NCBI GenBank assembly: GCA_031286095.1
Contig: JAITUY010000055.1
Location: 1 to 38,474 of the forward strand
Source: Treponema sp.
GTDB lineage: Bacteria; Spirochaetota; Spirochaetia; Treponematales; Breznakiellaceae
Reading direction: 5' to 3'
DNA: 38,474 nt
The notes under the pieces are model-generated. The model was not told the DNA's origin, ran no database searches, and worked only from the letters and a program-made list of their open reading frames with translations. Position numbers and translations under genes: made by a program. Shown piece by piece: positions 24,778 through 38,474 of the stretch (position 1 is its first letter; every line of letters begins with the position of its first letter).

Positions 24778-25123
24778 TGTTCTGGAAAAGACTTCCCCCG
24801 GAGGCAAAGGCATCTGAAAGAAATCTTTTACCACAAACCTCACGAATCAATACGAGCATAAGAAATATGTCTTACAAATTAACGCAATATAATGCGGATA
24901 ATGATAAGATATCAACTAAAAGTTCTCGAGCATACCGAAGGTACGCGATTCGCGTTGGCTCGTTGTAAGAAATCCTTGCTTTTTGGACATTCCGGGACGC
25001 AAAGTTGTTGTTCGATGAATTTTCGTTTAATTAAGATATGTCTTATTCAAATAGAGTTATATGTAATTGCCATTGACATTTCTTAAAAATAGTGAAATAA
25101 TTATTTAAGGATACTGAAAATAT
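24778..25123. repeat. Intergenic region with a family C repeat and a promoter
   Basis: Family C begins at about 24,808 (TTTTACCACAAACCTCACGA near 24,827) and an inverted part, CGATTCGCGTTGGCTCGTTG, ends near 24,967. The same unit occurs at about 35,940-35,990. The remainder is AT-rich and ends with the promoter at 25,073-25,101. No gene, and no left-hand attC site for the first cassette, was found. Confidence 0.6.
25073..25101 (+). promoter_or_regulatory. Sigma-70-type promoter of the cassette membrane protein
   Basis: TTGACA (25,073-25,078), 17 bp, AATAAT (25,096-25,101), ending 22 nt before the ATG at 25,124. TAAGGA lies between the -10 box and the start. Confidence 0.65.
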
Positions 25124-25587: not shown

Positions 25588-25888
25588 ACTCAACGAGGTT
25601 GCAGAAAAACTGTTTTTAAACAAGGAAGTATTAAAAAACCATCATTTTTGGGCGTTTTGAGGCTGATTTTATGTATATTTTGAAATCATTTTTTTGAGAA
25701 GGGGTTTTTCTGCAACCTCAACAGGACTGTAACTGCATCGCCGCCTGTCGGCGGCTCGGGCTACACAAAACCGTGTTCAGGCTGTCGCCCCTTGCACGGT
25801 TTTGTGTAGCCACATTTGGGGCAAGGGTCGTTGCTACGCAATGCCCTATAACCTGACCTAAACGTCAGTTGCAGCCATAACGTTAAGT
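25588..25888 (+). other. attC-like recombination site 4, split by a MITE
   Basis: R'' is ACTCAAC (25,588-25,594; an exact RYYYAAC), interrupted by the MITE at 25,595-25,719 and followed by the duplicated AAC (25,720-25,722). L'' is GGACTGTAACTG (25,724-25,735). A long structured centre follows, then L' CAGTTGCAGCC (25,866-25,876) and R' GTTAAGT (25,882-25,888; an exact GTTRRRY). L'' has one extra A compared with L', the hallmark asymmetry of attC. The centre matches sites 2 and 3 in inverse orientation. A cassette would begin at the TT of R'. Confidence 0.75.
25595..25719. mobile_element. 125-bp MITE inside the attC R'' box
   Basis: Perfect 16-bp terminal inverted repeats, GAGGTTGCAGAAAAAC (25,595-25,610) and GTTTTTCTGCAACCTC (25,704-25,719), flanked by a 3-bp duplication AAC (25,592-25,594 and 25,720-25,722). 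There is no ORF inside. A GAGG tip and a 3-bp duplication would suit an IS5-type mobiliser, but the family is not assigned. Confidence 0.75.
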
Positions 25889-25938
25889 GAAATAAAATAT
25901 AAATTTACCGTAGAAATTTAATTATTTTTGATTGGCGG

Positions 25939-25967
25939 TTGACATATTAGTGTTATTATGATATAAA
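25939..25967 (+). promoter_or_regulatory. Sigma-70 promoter of the secreted cassette protein
   Basis: TTGACA (25,939-25,944), 17 bp, TATAAA (25,962-25,967), about 57 nt before ATG 26,025. It lies inside the cassette, downstream of the R' box of site 4. Confidence 0.7.
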
Positions 25968-26024
25968 GTAGACTGTTATGTATATTAGTAATATAAACAA
26001 ACGCTAACTCTAAAGGAGAGTGTA

Positions 26025-26429
26025 ATGACAAGAATTAAGCTTCAGTATAAATATTTGTTAATGATTTCTATTTTTGGAATAATAACCGTTAGTTCTGCAT
26101 TTGCTCAAGATAAAGCGCTCAACGGTACATGGGAATCTTCTGATGGAGAAGAATTTATATTTAACAATACAAATTTTGAAATATATTCTAATGCAGTCCC
26201 AAACATGAAAGGAACTTATACTGCTAATGATGGGAAAATTTTTTTAAAACCAACTCATTTATACGGACTTATTTTGGGTCTTGAAAACAAGTGGTTTTCA
26301 GTAAATGAAATAAGTGTAATTTATTCTGTTGAAGAGACTGCCTTTGAAGTTACTTGGGATTATTTTATTAGAGGTAATAGACTATCAATTATTATTGATG
26401 AAAAATTAGTTACTTACATAAAACAATAA
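26025..26429 (+). CDS. Small secreted lipocalin-like protein (cassette gene)
   Basis: 134 residues. A signal peptide (hydrophobic core ending SSAFA, then QDKALNG) is followed by a beta-rich body. LNGTWESSDGEEFIFNNTNF, then MKGTYTANDGKIFLKPTHLY, looks like the repeated strands of lipocalin-like or calycin domains common in treponeme secreted proteins. No ligand can be inferred. AAAGGAG precedes the ATG. The gene lies wholly between attC sites 4 and 5 in the plus orientation and has its own promoter. The cassette begins TTAAGTG and closes with R'' GCTTGAC, which pair with two transition mismatches. Confidence 0.75.
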   Translation: MTRIKLQYKYLLMISIFGIITVSSAFAQDKALNGTWESSDGEEFIFNNTNFEIYSNAVPNMKGTYTANDGKIFLKPTHLYGLILGLENKWFSVNEISVIYSVEETAFEVTWDYFIRGNRLSIIIDEKLVTYIKQ

Positions 26430-26458
26430 AATTGTTGGGTTGTAACAAATTTTACTTC

Positions 26459-26538
26459 GCTTGACAGGCCTGTAACCGCCTCGCCTCTTGCGCGGCTCTG
26501 GCTACACAAAAACGCCGGTTACGGCCAAAATATTGCAC
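26459..26538 (+). other. attC-like site 5 (short, partly decayed)
   Basis: R'' GCTTGAC (26,459-26,465; one mismatch to RYYYAAC), L'' GGCCTGTAACCG (26,467-26,478), L' CGGTTACGGCC (26,516-26,526; complementary to L'' apart from one extra base in L''), R' ATTGCAC (26,532-26,538; GTT has become ATT). The centre is only about 40 bp but keeps GGCTACACAAAA, shared with site 4. The decayed R' suggests this end can no longer recombine efficiently. Confidence 0.65.
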
Positions 26539-26577
26539 GTCATTTGTCATGAACTTGGTAAGTCAGTAAAATAATAT

Positions 26578-27081: not shown

Positions 27082-27711
27082 TGCCTCAAAAATAATCTAA
27101 ACCAAAGGTGGTCATGCCTCAAAATAAAAATCTAACTCAAATATGCTTTTCCGAAGGAGGGTTCTGGAAAAAATGGGTTATTAATGCAGAAAAAAAGGCG
27201 CTTACAAGGGAAATAAGTAAGCGGTATCAAAAGACCGGAAAAAAAGAGAAGACCGGCATACTTGACGAACTGGTCAAAACAACAGACTATAACCGCAAGG
27301 ACGTTTTACACGTTCTTGCCAACTGTGGAAAAACTACAACTGTCTATCGTTCCCCGTGATCCTTGCTGAACTTCTTATGTCTACCATCAAACTTATAAGC
27401 AAAGAAAGAGTTAGTGCAAAAATAAAAAAGGTTTATGATAAAATTGTTATAAGTCCGTATCAGCGGCTTATGGCTTCGCCCGATCTTTGTGATGAGGTTA
27501 AGGCGGAGTTGGCAGAGCGCATGAAACAATACGATCCGGTTAAACTCCAGCGTGAAGTCCAAAAGGCTGTTGATGCTCTGCTGTCGCTGAACAGGGCTGT
27601 AAATCTTGAAGGGGAAAAGCCCTCGCCGTTTCCGCTCTTCATGCCGTTTGACTACGGTTAGATTTTTATTTTGAAGCAACAGTCATTTCAGTTAGATTTT
27701 ATTTTGAGGCA
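27082..27711 (+). mobile_element. Internally deleted insertion sequence
   Basis: Terminal inverted repeats: TGCCTCAAAAATAATCTAA (27,082-27,100) and its near-complement TTAGATTTTATTTTGAGGCA (27,692-27,711). A second copy of the right end (TTAGATTTTTATTTTGAAGC) lies at about 27,659-27,678. Between them is a transposase start (27,108-27,359: MVMPQNKNLTQICFSEGGFW and ELVKTTDYNRKDVLHVLANC) joined out of frame to its C-terminus (27,356-27,661: LISKERVSAKIKKVYDK and CDEVKAELAERMKQYDPVKL). The DDE core is missing. It belongs to a transposase type frequent in treponemes; the IS family is not assigned. Confidence 0.75.
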
Positions 27712-35931: not shown

Positions 35932-35991
35932 TAGGGGTGTCCAAAAAGAATCCTTTACCACAAACCTCACGAACCAATACGAACAGAAGGG

Positions 35992-36159
35992 ATATATCGT
36001 TCTGGTTGTTAATGACGTTGCCCGCTCCCCATAAAGCAATGCGGAGCATTGCGGGGGCGGGTAATGTGGGTGAGGGATGCGTGGGAATGGCAAAGCCATG
36101 ACCTAGCCGACCGAACCCTAGCTGCCTACTGGCGGCGTACATTAACAGTCCTGTTATGT
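35992..36159 (-). other. attC-like site 1 (minus orientation)
   Basis: Read on the minus strand: R'' ACATAAC (36,159-36,153), L'' GGACTGTTAATG (36,151-36,140), a structured centre with GCAATGCGGAGCATTGC, L' CATTAACAACC (36,014-36,004) and R' GATATAT (35,998-35,992; GTT changed to GAT). L'' again has an extra A relative to L'. The L boxes here read GTTAATG/CATTAAC instead of GTAACTG/CAGTTAC, changing together. It ends the Fn3 lipoprotein cassette. The decayed R' marks the array's edge. Confidence 0.75.
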
Positions 36160-36222
36160 GCCGTAAAATCTGTTATATTTGTAACAATAAAATCTAGAAA
36201 GACGATACTGCTACATATTTAT

Positions 36223-37218
36223 TTACCAGCCACCAAAAAGGTAAGTTAGTGCATAATATTTTGCTGTTCCATCACCATCGGCATTTGATGCACGAACAAA
36301 AAAGTTATATGAAGTTGTATTGTTCAACCCTGTTATTGTTGCCGAATTGGTTGACACTGTTGTTTTTAATGTTGCCGAACTAATATCATTATTACCAGTT
36401 ATGCTTTCCAACACGCTCATATACACTTTATAGCTAGTAGCTGACGGAACTGCAGTCCAATTGAGTGTGATTGACGTATTATCAATTTTAGTATGACTTA
36501 TGGTGTCTGGTACGGCTACATTGGTTTTAGCCCTTGCATAAGTGGTACTATAATCGCTGTCTACCCCATCTGACGATATTATACTTCTTGTCGTTGCTTT
36601 AACGTAGAAAATATAATCTGTTAAAGCAGTCAAATTCGTTACCTGTATTTCTGTTCCTGATGATGGATATGATCCTGCTTTTGTCAATGAAGCTGTTGTT
36701 GTATCACTCGCGTTATATAGTTTATAATACACTTCATAATTGATCGATGAAGCGCCGTCAACTGTAACAGCATTCCAACTTACCCTTATTATACTTGATG
36801 AACCATTTACCGCTGAGGCGCTAACTCCCGTAGGGGCAGGAACAGAAATCTGGTTTGTTGTTACCGAAATGTCCGCAGAATAACTTCCCAAACCATTAGC
36901 GTTATAGGCTGCAACATGGAAAGAATATCTTGTATTTGCTTTTAAGCCAGTAACAGTATGGCTTGCCGAGGTTGGACGACCTGAACTTACATAATTGGAT
37001 TGACCATCTTCTTTTCTTTCAATCCAGTATTCCGTTGCTCCGGAGACGGAATTCCAAGTAAGCTGAACGCTTGTTGCTGATACGGCATTTCCCGTTAAAC
37101 CAGTCGGCGTTGCAGGAGGTGAATCATTATCCCCTGAACCATTATCACACCCAACAACCGTCATTCCGAATACCAGCGCCAATACCAGTATTCCCAGCAA
37201 AAACCTTTTGTTTACCAT
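36223..37218 (-). CDS. Fibronectin type III lipoprotein (cassette gene)
   Basis: 331 residues. The signal MVNKRFLLGILVLALVFGMT continues to lipobox VVGC (residues 21-24), a leader repeated in many treponeme lipoproteins. Three Fn3 domains follow: about 35-120 (TPTGLTGNAVSATSVQLTWN), 128-230 (APTGVSASAVNGSSSIIRVS) and 235-325 (ITLNWTAVPSATSYKVYMSV). Fn3 domains bind proteins or carbohydrates at the cell surface; no catalytic domain is present. A strong AAGGAGG precedes the ATG. The gene lies alone between attC sites 2 and 1. The cassette starts TTATGTGCC and ends GGCACATAAC, as expected for one integron cassette. Confidence 0.88.
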   Translation of the reverse strand: MVNKRFLLGILVLALVFGMTVVGCDNGSGDNDSPPATPTGLTGNAVSATSVQLTWNSVSGATEYWIERKEDGQSNYVSSGRPTSASHTVTGLKANTRYSFHVAAYNANGLGSYSADISVTTNQISVPAPTGVSASAVNGSSSIIRVSWNAVTVDGASSINYEVYYKLYNASDTTTASLTKAGSYPSSGTEIQVTNLTALTDYIFYVKATTRSIISSDGVDSDYSTTYARAKTNVAVPDTISHTKIDNTSITLNWTAVPSATSYKVYMSVLESITGNNDISSATLKTTVSTNSATITGLNNTTSYNFFVRASNADGDGTAKYYALTYLFGGW

Positions 37219-37317
37219 AGTTTTTTCCTCCTTACTTTGGTAACAAAGTTTTATGTGTATAAATTCATAAAATCTTTATTTTGCATTATTTTAACAAAAT
37301 ATTTCAGATTTTATGGC

Positions 37318-37497
37318 ACATAACGTTCTGGCTGTAACTGACGTTTTTTTGCGCCCGATAAAGAAAAATGCGGAGCATTTTTACGGGCGCAAAAAAATGT
37401 GGCGGAACAAAACACCACAAAGGGCGTAAGCCCGACTGCGGTTTTTCGTAGCCCGAGCCGCCCAACGGGCGGCGATGCAGTTACAGTCCTGTTAGGC
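37318..37497 (-). other. attC-like site 2 (minus orientation, complete)
   Basis: Read on the minus strand: R'' GCCTAAC (37,497-37,491; exact RYYYAAC), L'' GGACTGTAACTG (37,489-37,478), a centre with several stems (GCCGCC/GGGCGGC, GGGCTTACGCCC, AAAATGCTCCGCATTTTT), L' CAGTTACAGCC (37,340-37,330) and R' GTTATGT (37,324-37,318; one mismatch to GTTRRRY). L'' pairs with L' over 11 bp apart from one unpaired A, the asymmetry that sets attC strand choice. The acetyltransferase gene stops 16 bp before R''. The site is 180 bp, long for attC but comparable with site 4. Confidence 0.85.
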
Positions 37498-37512
37498 GCT
37501 GGGTTTTTGCTT

Positions 37513-38247
37513 TTACAATTTTACTATATTACATGGATATTCATTAATAACTTTAAACCCCAATGATTTGGCTAATTTTACAGAGCCTTCATTGTACTTA
37601 TAACAATCCCATTTTGGTATACTGTTTTTCTTTAAACAGTTTTCTATAAATGTCACTGATAATAATTTACCTAATCCTTGTTTTTGATATTGGCTATCCA
37701 CTATTATATCTATTTCCACTTCATCATGGTATATTCCAGCCGAAATTATTAACCCAACTATTTTTTTATCATGTTCTACATAATATCCAAATCCATTATC
37801 TAAAAAATTTTCTTTTGTGAACCAAAAATCTGTTATCGAATTCTTTATGCCTCCGCAAACCTTATTTATATTATTTTTTTCTATTTTTTCAACTACATAT
37901 TTTTCATAGGTAATTTTTGTTTTGTTAAATATATTATTATCAAAATTCCATTCTAATCTGGGAAAATATTCTATTGGGCCTTTTAGTATATCTCTTATTA
38001 ATTCTTCCCAATATTTTGTCATACCAAACCAAATGTAATTTCCTTTATTATTTTCTGTTAGTATATAAATAATTTCTTTGTCGAATTCTTTATCTATATC
38101 ATCTCCTATAACATAAACCCAATTAAGGTTATTAATTATTAAGACTTTTTTACAGTTTTTGTTTATAAATATTTTTCCATCCATATTTTTCTGAATTACT
38201 GATTGTACTAATGGGTATCTTACATTACTCAATAACTGATATATCAT
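37513..38247 (-). CDS. GNAT-family N-acetyltransferase (cassette gene)
   Basis: 244 residues from ATG 38,247 (AAGGA 8 nt upstream; the TTG at 38,265 is less likely). The C-terminal half is a GCN5-related fold: KIVGLIISAGIYHDEVEIDI, then the acetyl-CoA-binding loop VDSQYQKQGLGKLLSVTFIE (Q-x-x-G-x-G/L pattern), then WDCYKYNEGSVKLAKSLGF. The N-terminal half is the extended type seen in larger GNAT proteins of the YobR kind. It transfers acetyl from acetyl-CoA to an unknown amine; drug or metabolite modification is common among integron cassettes. It is very AT-rich and flanked by attC sites 2 and 3. Confidence 0.85.
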   Translation of the reverse strand: MIYQLLSNVRYPLVQSVIQKNMDGKIFINKNCKKVLIINNLNWVYVIGDDIDKEFDKEIIYILTENNKGNYIWFGMTKYWEELIRDILKGPIEYFPRLEWNFDNNIFNKTKITYEKYVVEKIEKNNINKVCGGIKNSITDFWFTKENFLDNGFGYYVEHDKKIVGLIISAGIYHDEVEIDIIVDSQYQKQGLGKLLSVTFIENCLKKNSIPKWDCYKYNEGSVKLAKSLGFKVINEYPCNIVKL

Positions 38248-38280
38248 CGTTAAAATCCTTGTCAAAAATACAATTTTGAT

Positions 38281-38311
38281 TAAATATCTTACGTTAAAAT
38301 GTTTTTGTCAA
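38281..38311 (-). promoter_or_regulatory. Possible promoter of the acetyltransferase cassette gene
   Basis: On the minus strand TTGACA (38,311-38,306) is followed after 18-19 bp by ATATTT/TATTTA (about 38,287-38,281). The gene starts at 38,247. The -35 is perfect but the -10 is weak and the spacing a little long. Confidence 0.5.
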
Positions 38312-38351
38312 GTATTAATCAATATTTATCTAAAAAATTCAAAAAACTTGC

Positions 38352-38474
38352 GCCTAACGTTTTGGCTGTAACTGACGTTTGGGGCAGGTTATAGGGCGTT
38401 GCGGAGCAACGACCCCTGCCCCAAATGTGGCGGAGAAAAACCGCACAAAGGGCGACAGCCCGACTGCGGTTTTT
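38352..38474 (-). other. attC-like site 3 (cut by window end)
   Basis: The minus strand's R' GTTAGGC (38,358-38,352) and L' CAGTTACAGCC (38,374-38,364) are present. The centre runs into the window edge and closely matches the inverted site 4 (GGGGCAGGTTATAGGGCGTT, then GGGGCAAGGGTCGTT-like arms). Its R' supplies the start TTAGGCGC of the acetyltransferase cassette, complementary to the R'' of site 2. Confidence 0.8.

Follow-up and report, generated by a model that had tools for sequence, protein, structure and literature searches.

The window, a contig of 38,474 nucleotides (C77) from a Treponema genome of 2.77 Mb that is 88% complete in 270 contigs, ends in a genuine integron-type cassette array with three attC sites on its minus strand, as a preliminary description of the same sequence had claimed. 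The cassettes of this and similar arrays have probably been circles recombined by a tyrosine recombinase, most likely IntX, and inserted both beside its gene, intX, and in copies of a dispersed repeat, D. This reading is carried by the attC architecture of the sites, the match between cassette starts and R'' boxes, the presence of IntX beside arrays in many genomes, the absence of IntI and the position of docking in D, all of them established at the level of the sequence. We infer that IntX performs the cassette recombination, acting on single-stranded, folded attC sites.

Cassettes and attC sites of the window

Read along the minus strand from 38474 to 35998, the array passes from attC site 3 through the GNAT cassette, site 2 and the Fn3 cassette to site 1, with both ORFs in the same direction as the attC sites (Table 1). 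The final base of site 3, G38358, is the cut position ahead of the GNAT cassette, which starts G|TTAGGCGCA at 38358/38357 and finds its match in its own R'' box (AGCGCCTAAC at 37500-37491, where GCGCCTAAC matches the start). The Fn3 cassette behaves alike, its start G|TTATGTGCC at 37324/37323 agreeing with its own R'', GGCACATAAC, at 36162-36153, and the earlier claim that each start complements its own R'' therefore holds for both. The extra A announced for L'' is found in both complete sites (AGG-A-CTGTAACTG versus CAGTTACAG-CC), the L boxes of site 1 do co-vary (L stem CTGTTAATG/CATTAACA), and the proposal of circular integron-type cassettes with long attC sites is supported. The regular R' expected of site 1 is the one element that was not confirmed: it reads G|ATATATCC and not GTTRRRY, because the site here meets a different repeat instead of a further cassette, and beyond G35998 lies half of repeat D and no cassette. 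The GNAT gene has no match at E ≤ 1e-8 in the congeners and was not found at other congener loci.

Table 1. Coordinates of cassettes, attC sites, copies of repeat D and the recombinase gene; positions refer to the window unless a genome or contig is named.
Feature	Position	Strand	Remarks
attC site 3	38358..38474	-	incomplete, cut by the contig end; attC model E=3.6e-36, model positions 56-180
GNAT cassette	37324..38357	-	start TTAGGCGCA, ORF, attC site 2
ORF, GNAT acetyltransferase, 250 aa	37513..38265	-	PF12746, E=7e-43
attC site 2	37315..37502	-	~180 bp; R''/R', L''/L' with extrahelical A, branched tip; attC model E=2.3e-36
Fn3 cassette	35998..37323	-	start TTATGTGCC, ORF, attC site 1
ORF, lipoprotein-like, three Fn3 repeats, 331 aa	36223..37218	-	PF00041, E=2e-29
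attC site 1	35998..36163	-	~170 bp; last site of the array, co-varied L boxes, ends G35998
Right half of D (ATATATCCCTTCTGTTCGTATTGGTTCGTGAGGTTTGTGG..CTTTTTGGACAC)	35934..35997	-	chromosomal docking site of the Fn3-GNAT array
Uninterrupted copy of D	24813..24993	-	docking position 24871/24872
Second array	25592..25882	+	attC with R'' AAC interrupted by 125-bp MITE (25595-25719); attC continues to G25882
Cassette of second array	25883..26542	+	ORF 26025-26429; short 88-bp attC 26455-26542 (E=2e-5)
intX, tyrosine recombinase, 380 aa	G000:C217:1394-2533		catalytic residues present
attC downstream of IntX	G007, G009, G011, G015, G030, G032, G035		same strand as IntX; attC model

The attC model was built from 31 sites, in whose alignment 92.8% of the L-stem cells are paired and 5 of the 11 pairs have changed on both sides; pairing and covariation exceed those of shuffled and slid controls, and the unpaired extra base of L'' is A, sometimes T or G. 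The sites fold 3.7-5.7 SD below shuffled sequences (site 2, 5.5 SD), and the R''/R' and L''/L' boxes, the extrahelical base and the foldable strand by which attC sites of integrons are recognised are all present. A home-made scanner of R and L boxes gave about as many matches in shuffled sequence as in the relatives and was replaced by the alignment-based models. At a threshold of E ≤ 1e-3, the model counts 78 attC-like sites on about 60 contigs of the genome, many of them at contig ends, as is to be expected if an assembly breaks at repeats. Of the 36 congeners, 26 have sites by this model, including nine in a row and in one orientation over ~6.7 kb (G011:C86), a plain cassette array; 23 genomes of other families gave no match, and the sites in the arrays of those families are different. 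The lack of both an integrase and further sites, which was to speak against the preliminary description, is thus not what the genome presents: it holds some 78 sites and, on contig C217, a recombinase beside an attC cassette.

Each cassette would once have been a circle; a tyrosine recombinase would have acted on its folded attC at G|TT, and the start of the cassette would for this reason complement the cassette's own R''. The complementarity that in integrons denotes a circular intermediate with a G|TT crossover extends to 34 cassettes of this genome and its congeners, in which start and own R'' agree in 5.12 of the 7 free positions. Permuted R'' boxes gave 3.78±0.17 of 7, with a maximum of 4.38 in 10000 permutations, none of which reached the observed value. 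Most of the poorly matching cassettes have an R'' that a small transposon interrupts. A near-identical repeat, TATGTCAGAGACATCGTTCACACC, was also seen ~15-20 bp into the cassettes of five loci (L021, L027, L029, L037 and L048), and is perhaps another small element or a shared leader.

The second array of the window lies on the plus strand, and its cassette starts GTTAAGTGAA against an own R'' of GTCAAGCGAA (6/7). The MITE that interrupts the preceding attC, 125-129 bp long with ends GAGGTTGCAGAA..TTCTGCAACCTC, is seen at 25592-25722 in the window and in about 40 places in the genome. In nearly all of the 23 copies read it is inserted in the AAC triplet of an attC R'', with AAC on both sides as a 3-bp duplication; judged by these insertion points, it is an attC-specific small transposon, and no transposase copy for it was identified. 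Between the second array and the MATE gene, two short adjacent ORFs (27108-27661) look like a decayed transposase-type gene; the first of them has no Pfam match.

Docking of cassettes in repeat D

Repeat D is a dispersed element of 180 bp with inverted-repeat ends, GTGTCCAAAAAG..CTTTTTGGACAC. It exists in some 16-20 uninterrupted copies, one of them within the window, with the sequence ..GTTAATTTGTAAG|ATATATTTC. Site 1 ends G|ATATATCCC, and what comes next is found again behind the terminal attC of other arrays and corresponds to half of D; this right half terminates five arrays. At the opposite end, six left halves lead into six different first cassettes (TTATGTGCC, TTAAGCAAC, TTAGGCGAC and others), which begin at one common position or no more than a few bases away from it. 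The left-junction cassette of L355 matches its own R'' at 7/7, and that of C10 matches an R'' lying outside its MITE. Uninterrupted copies of D within the same genome served as empty sites for comparison, since a comparison across genomes is impossible with relatives that are only 40-83% identical in flanking proteins. As read from these junctions, cassettes dock at one fixed position within D. Insertion at this single G|A position accounts for the scattering of the arrays, of which the window array is one example. The cut in D, G|AT, presumably fits the core reported for attG.

Having terminal inverted repeats and many copies, D could itself be a cassette-carrying MITE whose transposition as a whole spread the arrays, the recombinase having acted only once. 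This is unlikely, given that most copies of D carry no cassette and that the first cassette is a different one at every left junction. In the recombination model that we favour, docking would take place not only beside intX but also at the fixed G|A position in copies of D all over the chromosome, the Fn3-GNAT array included. Two further arrays (L046, 156-334; L036, 2624-2806) end in G|GTGT(C/A)(T/C)GAACAAGTTTTTCAA(A/G)CTTTTCGGACAT, possibly a second docking repeat distinct from D.

The recombinase IntX, its distribution and its relatives

IntX has the core of a tyrosine recombinase, with the catalytic residues R-K-H-R-H-Y and a SAM-like N domain, and is devoid of the patch III/I2 insert of ~40 residues that defines IntI and by which an integron integrase is recognised. 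The IntI family model matches C217:1715-2518 in two halves with the middle missing, and the spacing from the lysine motif to H-x-x-R (HxLRH) is 58-65 residues in IntX versus 100 in 29 of 30 IntI proteins from many phyla and 99 in the remaining one. The IntI model TIGR02249 is the best overall family match of IntX, at 217.7 bits under a curated cut-off of 265 (486.8 bits for a Vibrio atypicus control); the archaeal XerA model NF040815 gives 211 bits, with a cut-off of 220, and the top PDB fold matches are of XerA type (5hxy and 4a8e). A housekeeping recombinase of the XerC/XerD kind was rejected on the scores of 187 and 179 bits, versus cut-offs of 335 and 330, and on the tree. Separate Xer-type genes are located on contig C98, and the attC model has no match at the Xer loci L053 and L081-L083. 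Downstream of intX come a NUDIX cassette and a 180-bp attC, the one such site visible in the 3.9 kb of C217. This first cassette, GGGAG|TTAAGTGCA, begins ~430 bp after intX and matches its own R'', TGCACTTAAC; a conserved attI was not delimited there.

Orthologues of IntX (E<1e-100) are present in 18 of the 36 congeners; five genomes of other families contain orthologues that have diverged further. In nine congeners the attC model has matches within ~3 kb of IntX, located downstream in those listed in Table 1 (weak in G032, E=4e-4) and, in G010 (L098) and G013 (L096), on the other side of IntX, in opposite orientation and pointing away. The arrangement of G013 and G010 is the usual divergent integron layout, and that of most congeners the Treponema-like one. 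In two other families (G056 and G057), ~300-bp repeats spaced ~1 kb apart lie directly downstream of IntX, and those read out in G057 show R''/R' boxes and G|TT starts. Some congeners, such as G003, G018 and G021, have attC-like sites and no IntX that was found. Classical IntI above the cut-off is absent from the 37 genomes of the genus (this one and the 36 congeners); at 88% completeness and 270 contigs, the analysed genome may have an IntI that went unseen. The relatives in the order include genomes with a typical spirochaete IntI, and across the rest of the order IntI occurs in 10 genomes and IntX in 5, with none having both.

In a tree of 85 proteins, IntI forms one clade (100/100) and IntX another (100/98), outside that of IntI and among recombinases without patch III; the exact branching is moderately supported and the deeper branching uncertain. 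An early small tree that placed IntX as sister to IntI plus three paralogues is superseded. On the larger tree, a single gain of patch III in IntI is simpler than its loss in IntX, within the uncertainty of the deeper branching. A further family without patch III (L078, L079 and L080 of G043, G040 and G045), from genomes in which IntI is present as well, branches off in the wider tree at a deeper point than IntX and IntI.

Proteins without patch III and 37-47% identical to IntX are found in Bacteroidota, Bacillota, Patescibacteria and archaea, and attC-like arrays flank such recombinases in Rufibacter, Seonamhaeicola, Winogradskyella and Algibacter. In the Bacteroidota cassettes, with R'' and start positions located by eye, the start matches the own R'' at 5.86 of 7 versus 2.79±0.41 after permutation, none of 20000 permutations being as high. 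In Firmicutes HGW-Firmicutes-8 (L238, 370-4700), a recombinase without patch III has long, spaced repeats on its upstream side, with the ends GTTAGGCGATG/GTTAGACGATG, which are possibly an array in Bacillota.

It could be objected that the arrays are relics (CALIN) of a lost classical IntI and IntX a Xer-like neighbour inactive on attC. Loss of intI with attC remaining has been reported for T. phagedenis (PMC3607928), ten genomes of the same order bear IntI, IntX is without patch III, and this patch is given as necessary for cassette capture by IntI in PMC7790495, which cites Messier and Roy 2001 on the point. We nevertheless regard the objection as quite improbable, because IntI is found in 0 of 37 genomes of the genus, whereas IntX lies beside attC in nine and beside arrays in two other families; the cassettes adjoining IntX have intact boxes; and the same pairing recurs in Bacteroidota, where a second loss of IntI would have to be assumed. 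Of far lower probability still is a reading of the spaced repeats as a family of transposable palindromes, of the MITE or REP-like kind, that lie between ordinary genes and are not recombination sites: they are dispersed, palindromic and many, and real MITEs are also present, but a transposon end carries no copy of the bases with which the adjacent gene block opens, the match of start to own R'' is far above permutation, it is the R box that varies, as it does in attC, and the L stem shows covariation.

Under recombination by IntX, the enzyme would cut the bottom strand of the folded attC at G|TT, and attC, the intX-proximal site and D would be the targets to which it joins cassettes. An N-terminal extension of some 70 residues that contains a W(D/S)xxxKxWxxP-like motif is common to IntX, its Bacteroidota relatives and spirochaete IntI. 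In profile comparisons this domain is homologous between Bacteroidota and spirochaete IntI (E=1.8e-11), and that of the same-genus IntX is weakly homologous (E=2e-4), aligning poorly with spirochaete IntI (E=0.014). The predicted model of the domain (mean pLDDT 72) has the SMARCAL1 HARP domain as its best PDB fold match, a weak one (probability 0.98, E=0.017); the HARP family of Pfam gives no significant match (E=0.25). HARP domains bind where single-stranded DNA meets double-stranded DNA, and on that account the N-terminal domain is a candidate reader of folded attC. As a lead and not a finding, the modelled HARP-like domain would perhaps help IntX to recognise folded attC in place of I2.

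Relation to known integrons

The I2 helix, described as indispensable for capturing cassettes and as absent from all other proteins, is held to have turned an ordinary tyrosine recombinase into the integron integrase (PMC7790495). Surveys of integrons require this helix as well: IntegronFinder combines PF00589 with an IntI-specific profile (PMC9668308). In the literature covered, which excludes preprints and most subscription journals, no published description of attC arrays with patch-III-less integrases was found. Tentatively, and with slightly less than even confidence, we propose a second large class of integrons, spread over several spirochaete families and Bacteroidota and perhaps Bacillota, Patescibacteria and archaea, in which the integrase never had patch III and the HARP-like domain reads the folded attC, the classical I2-bearing IntI being a derived branch. 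If recombinases without I2 build arrays, the view of integron origin based on I2 must change, and recombinases outside the IntI clade are the relatives needed to test that origin. In that case many arrays filed as integrase-less may also have an integrase, and Bacteroidota may have integrons much more often than is suggested by the one complete example, Salinibacter, that a survey recorded in Bacteroidetes proper (PMC9024848).

Among known recombinases, IntI (TIGR02249; V. cholerae IntI4, PDB 2a3v) shares with IntX the SAM-like N domain and R-K-H-R-H-Y, and differs in having the patch III/I2 insert, IntX remaining under the cut-off of 265 and outside the IntI clade. The closest compact fold without patch III is that of XerA and NF040815, 'site-specific tyrosine recombinase/integron integrase' (5hxy, 4a8e), from which IntX is set apart by its linkage to cassette arrays and the extra N-terminal HARP-like domain. 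The kinship with the T. denticola integron suggested at the outset stands in part. Chromosomal integrons of the T. denticola type (PMC3607928) likewise have R''/R' cassettes and stem-loop attC sites, and the gene order, with the integrase read towards the cassettes, is the same; no integrons were reported there for two termite-gut treponemes. Those integrons have IntI and one main locus, whereas the analysed genome has a recombinase without patch III, outside the IntI clade, and many short, dispersed arrays docked in D. Insertion at attG (Loot et al. 2024), in the account cited in PMC12901181, places cassettes outside attI, as docking in D does; compared with that account, the analysed natural genome reuses one repeated docking sequence, with a non-IntI recombinase. 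With its dispersed copies, D is a natural example of a single sequence that takes up cassettes throughout a chromosome.
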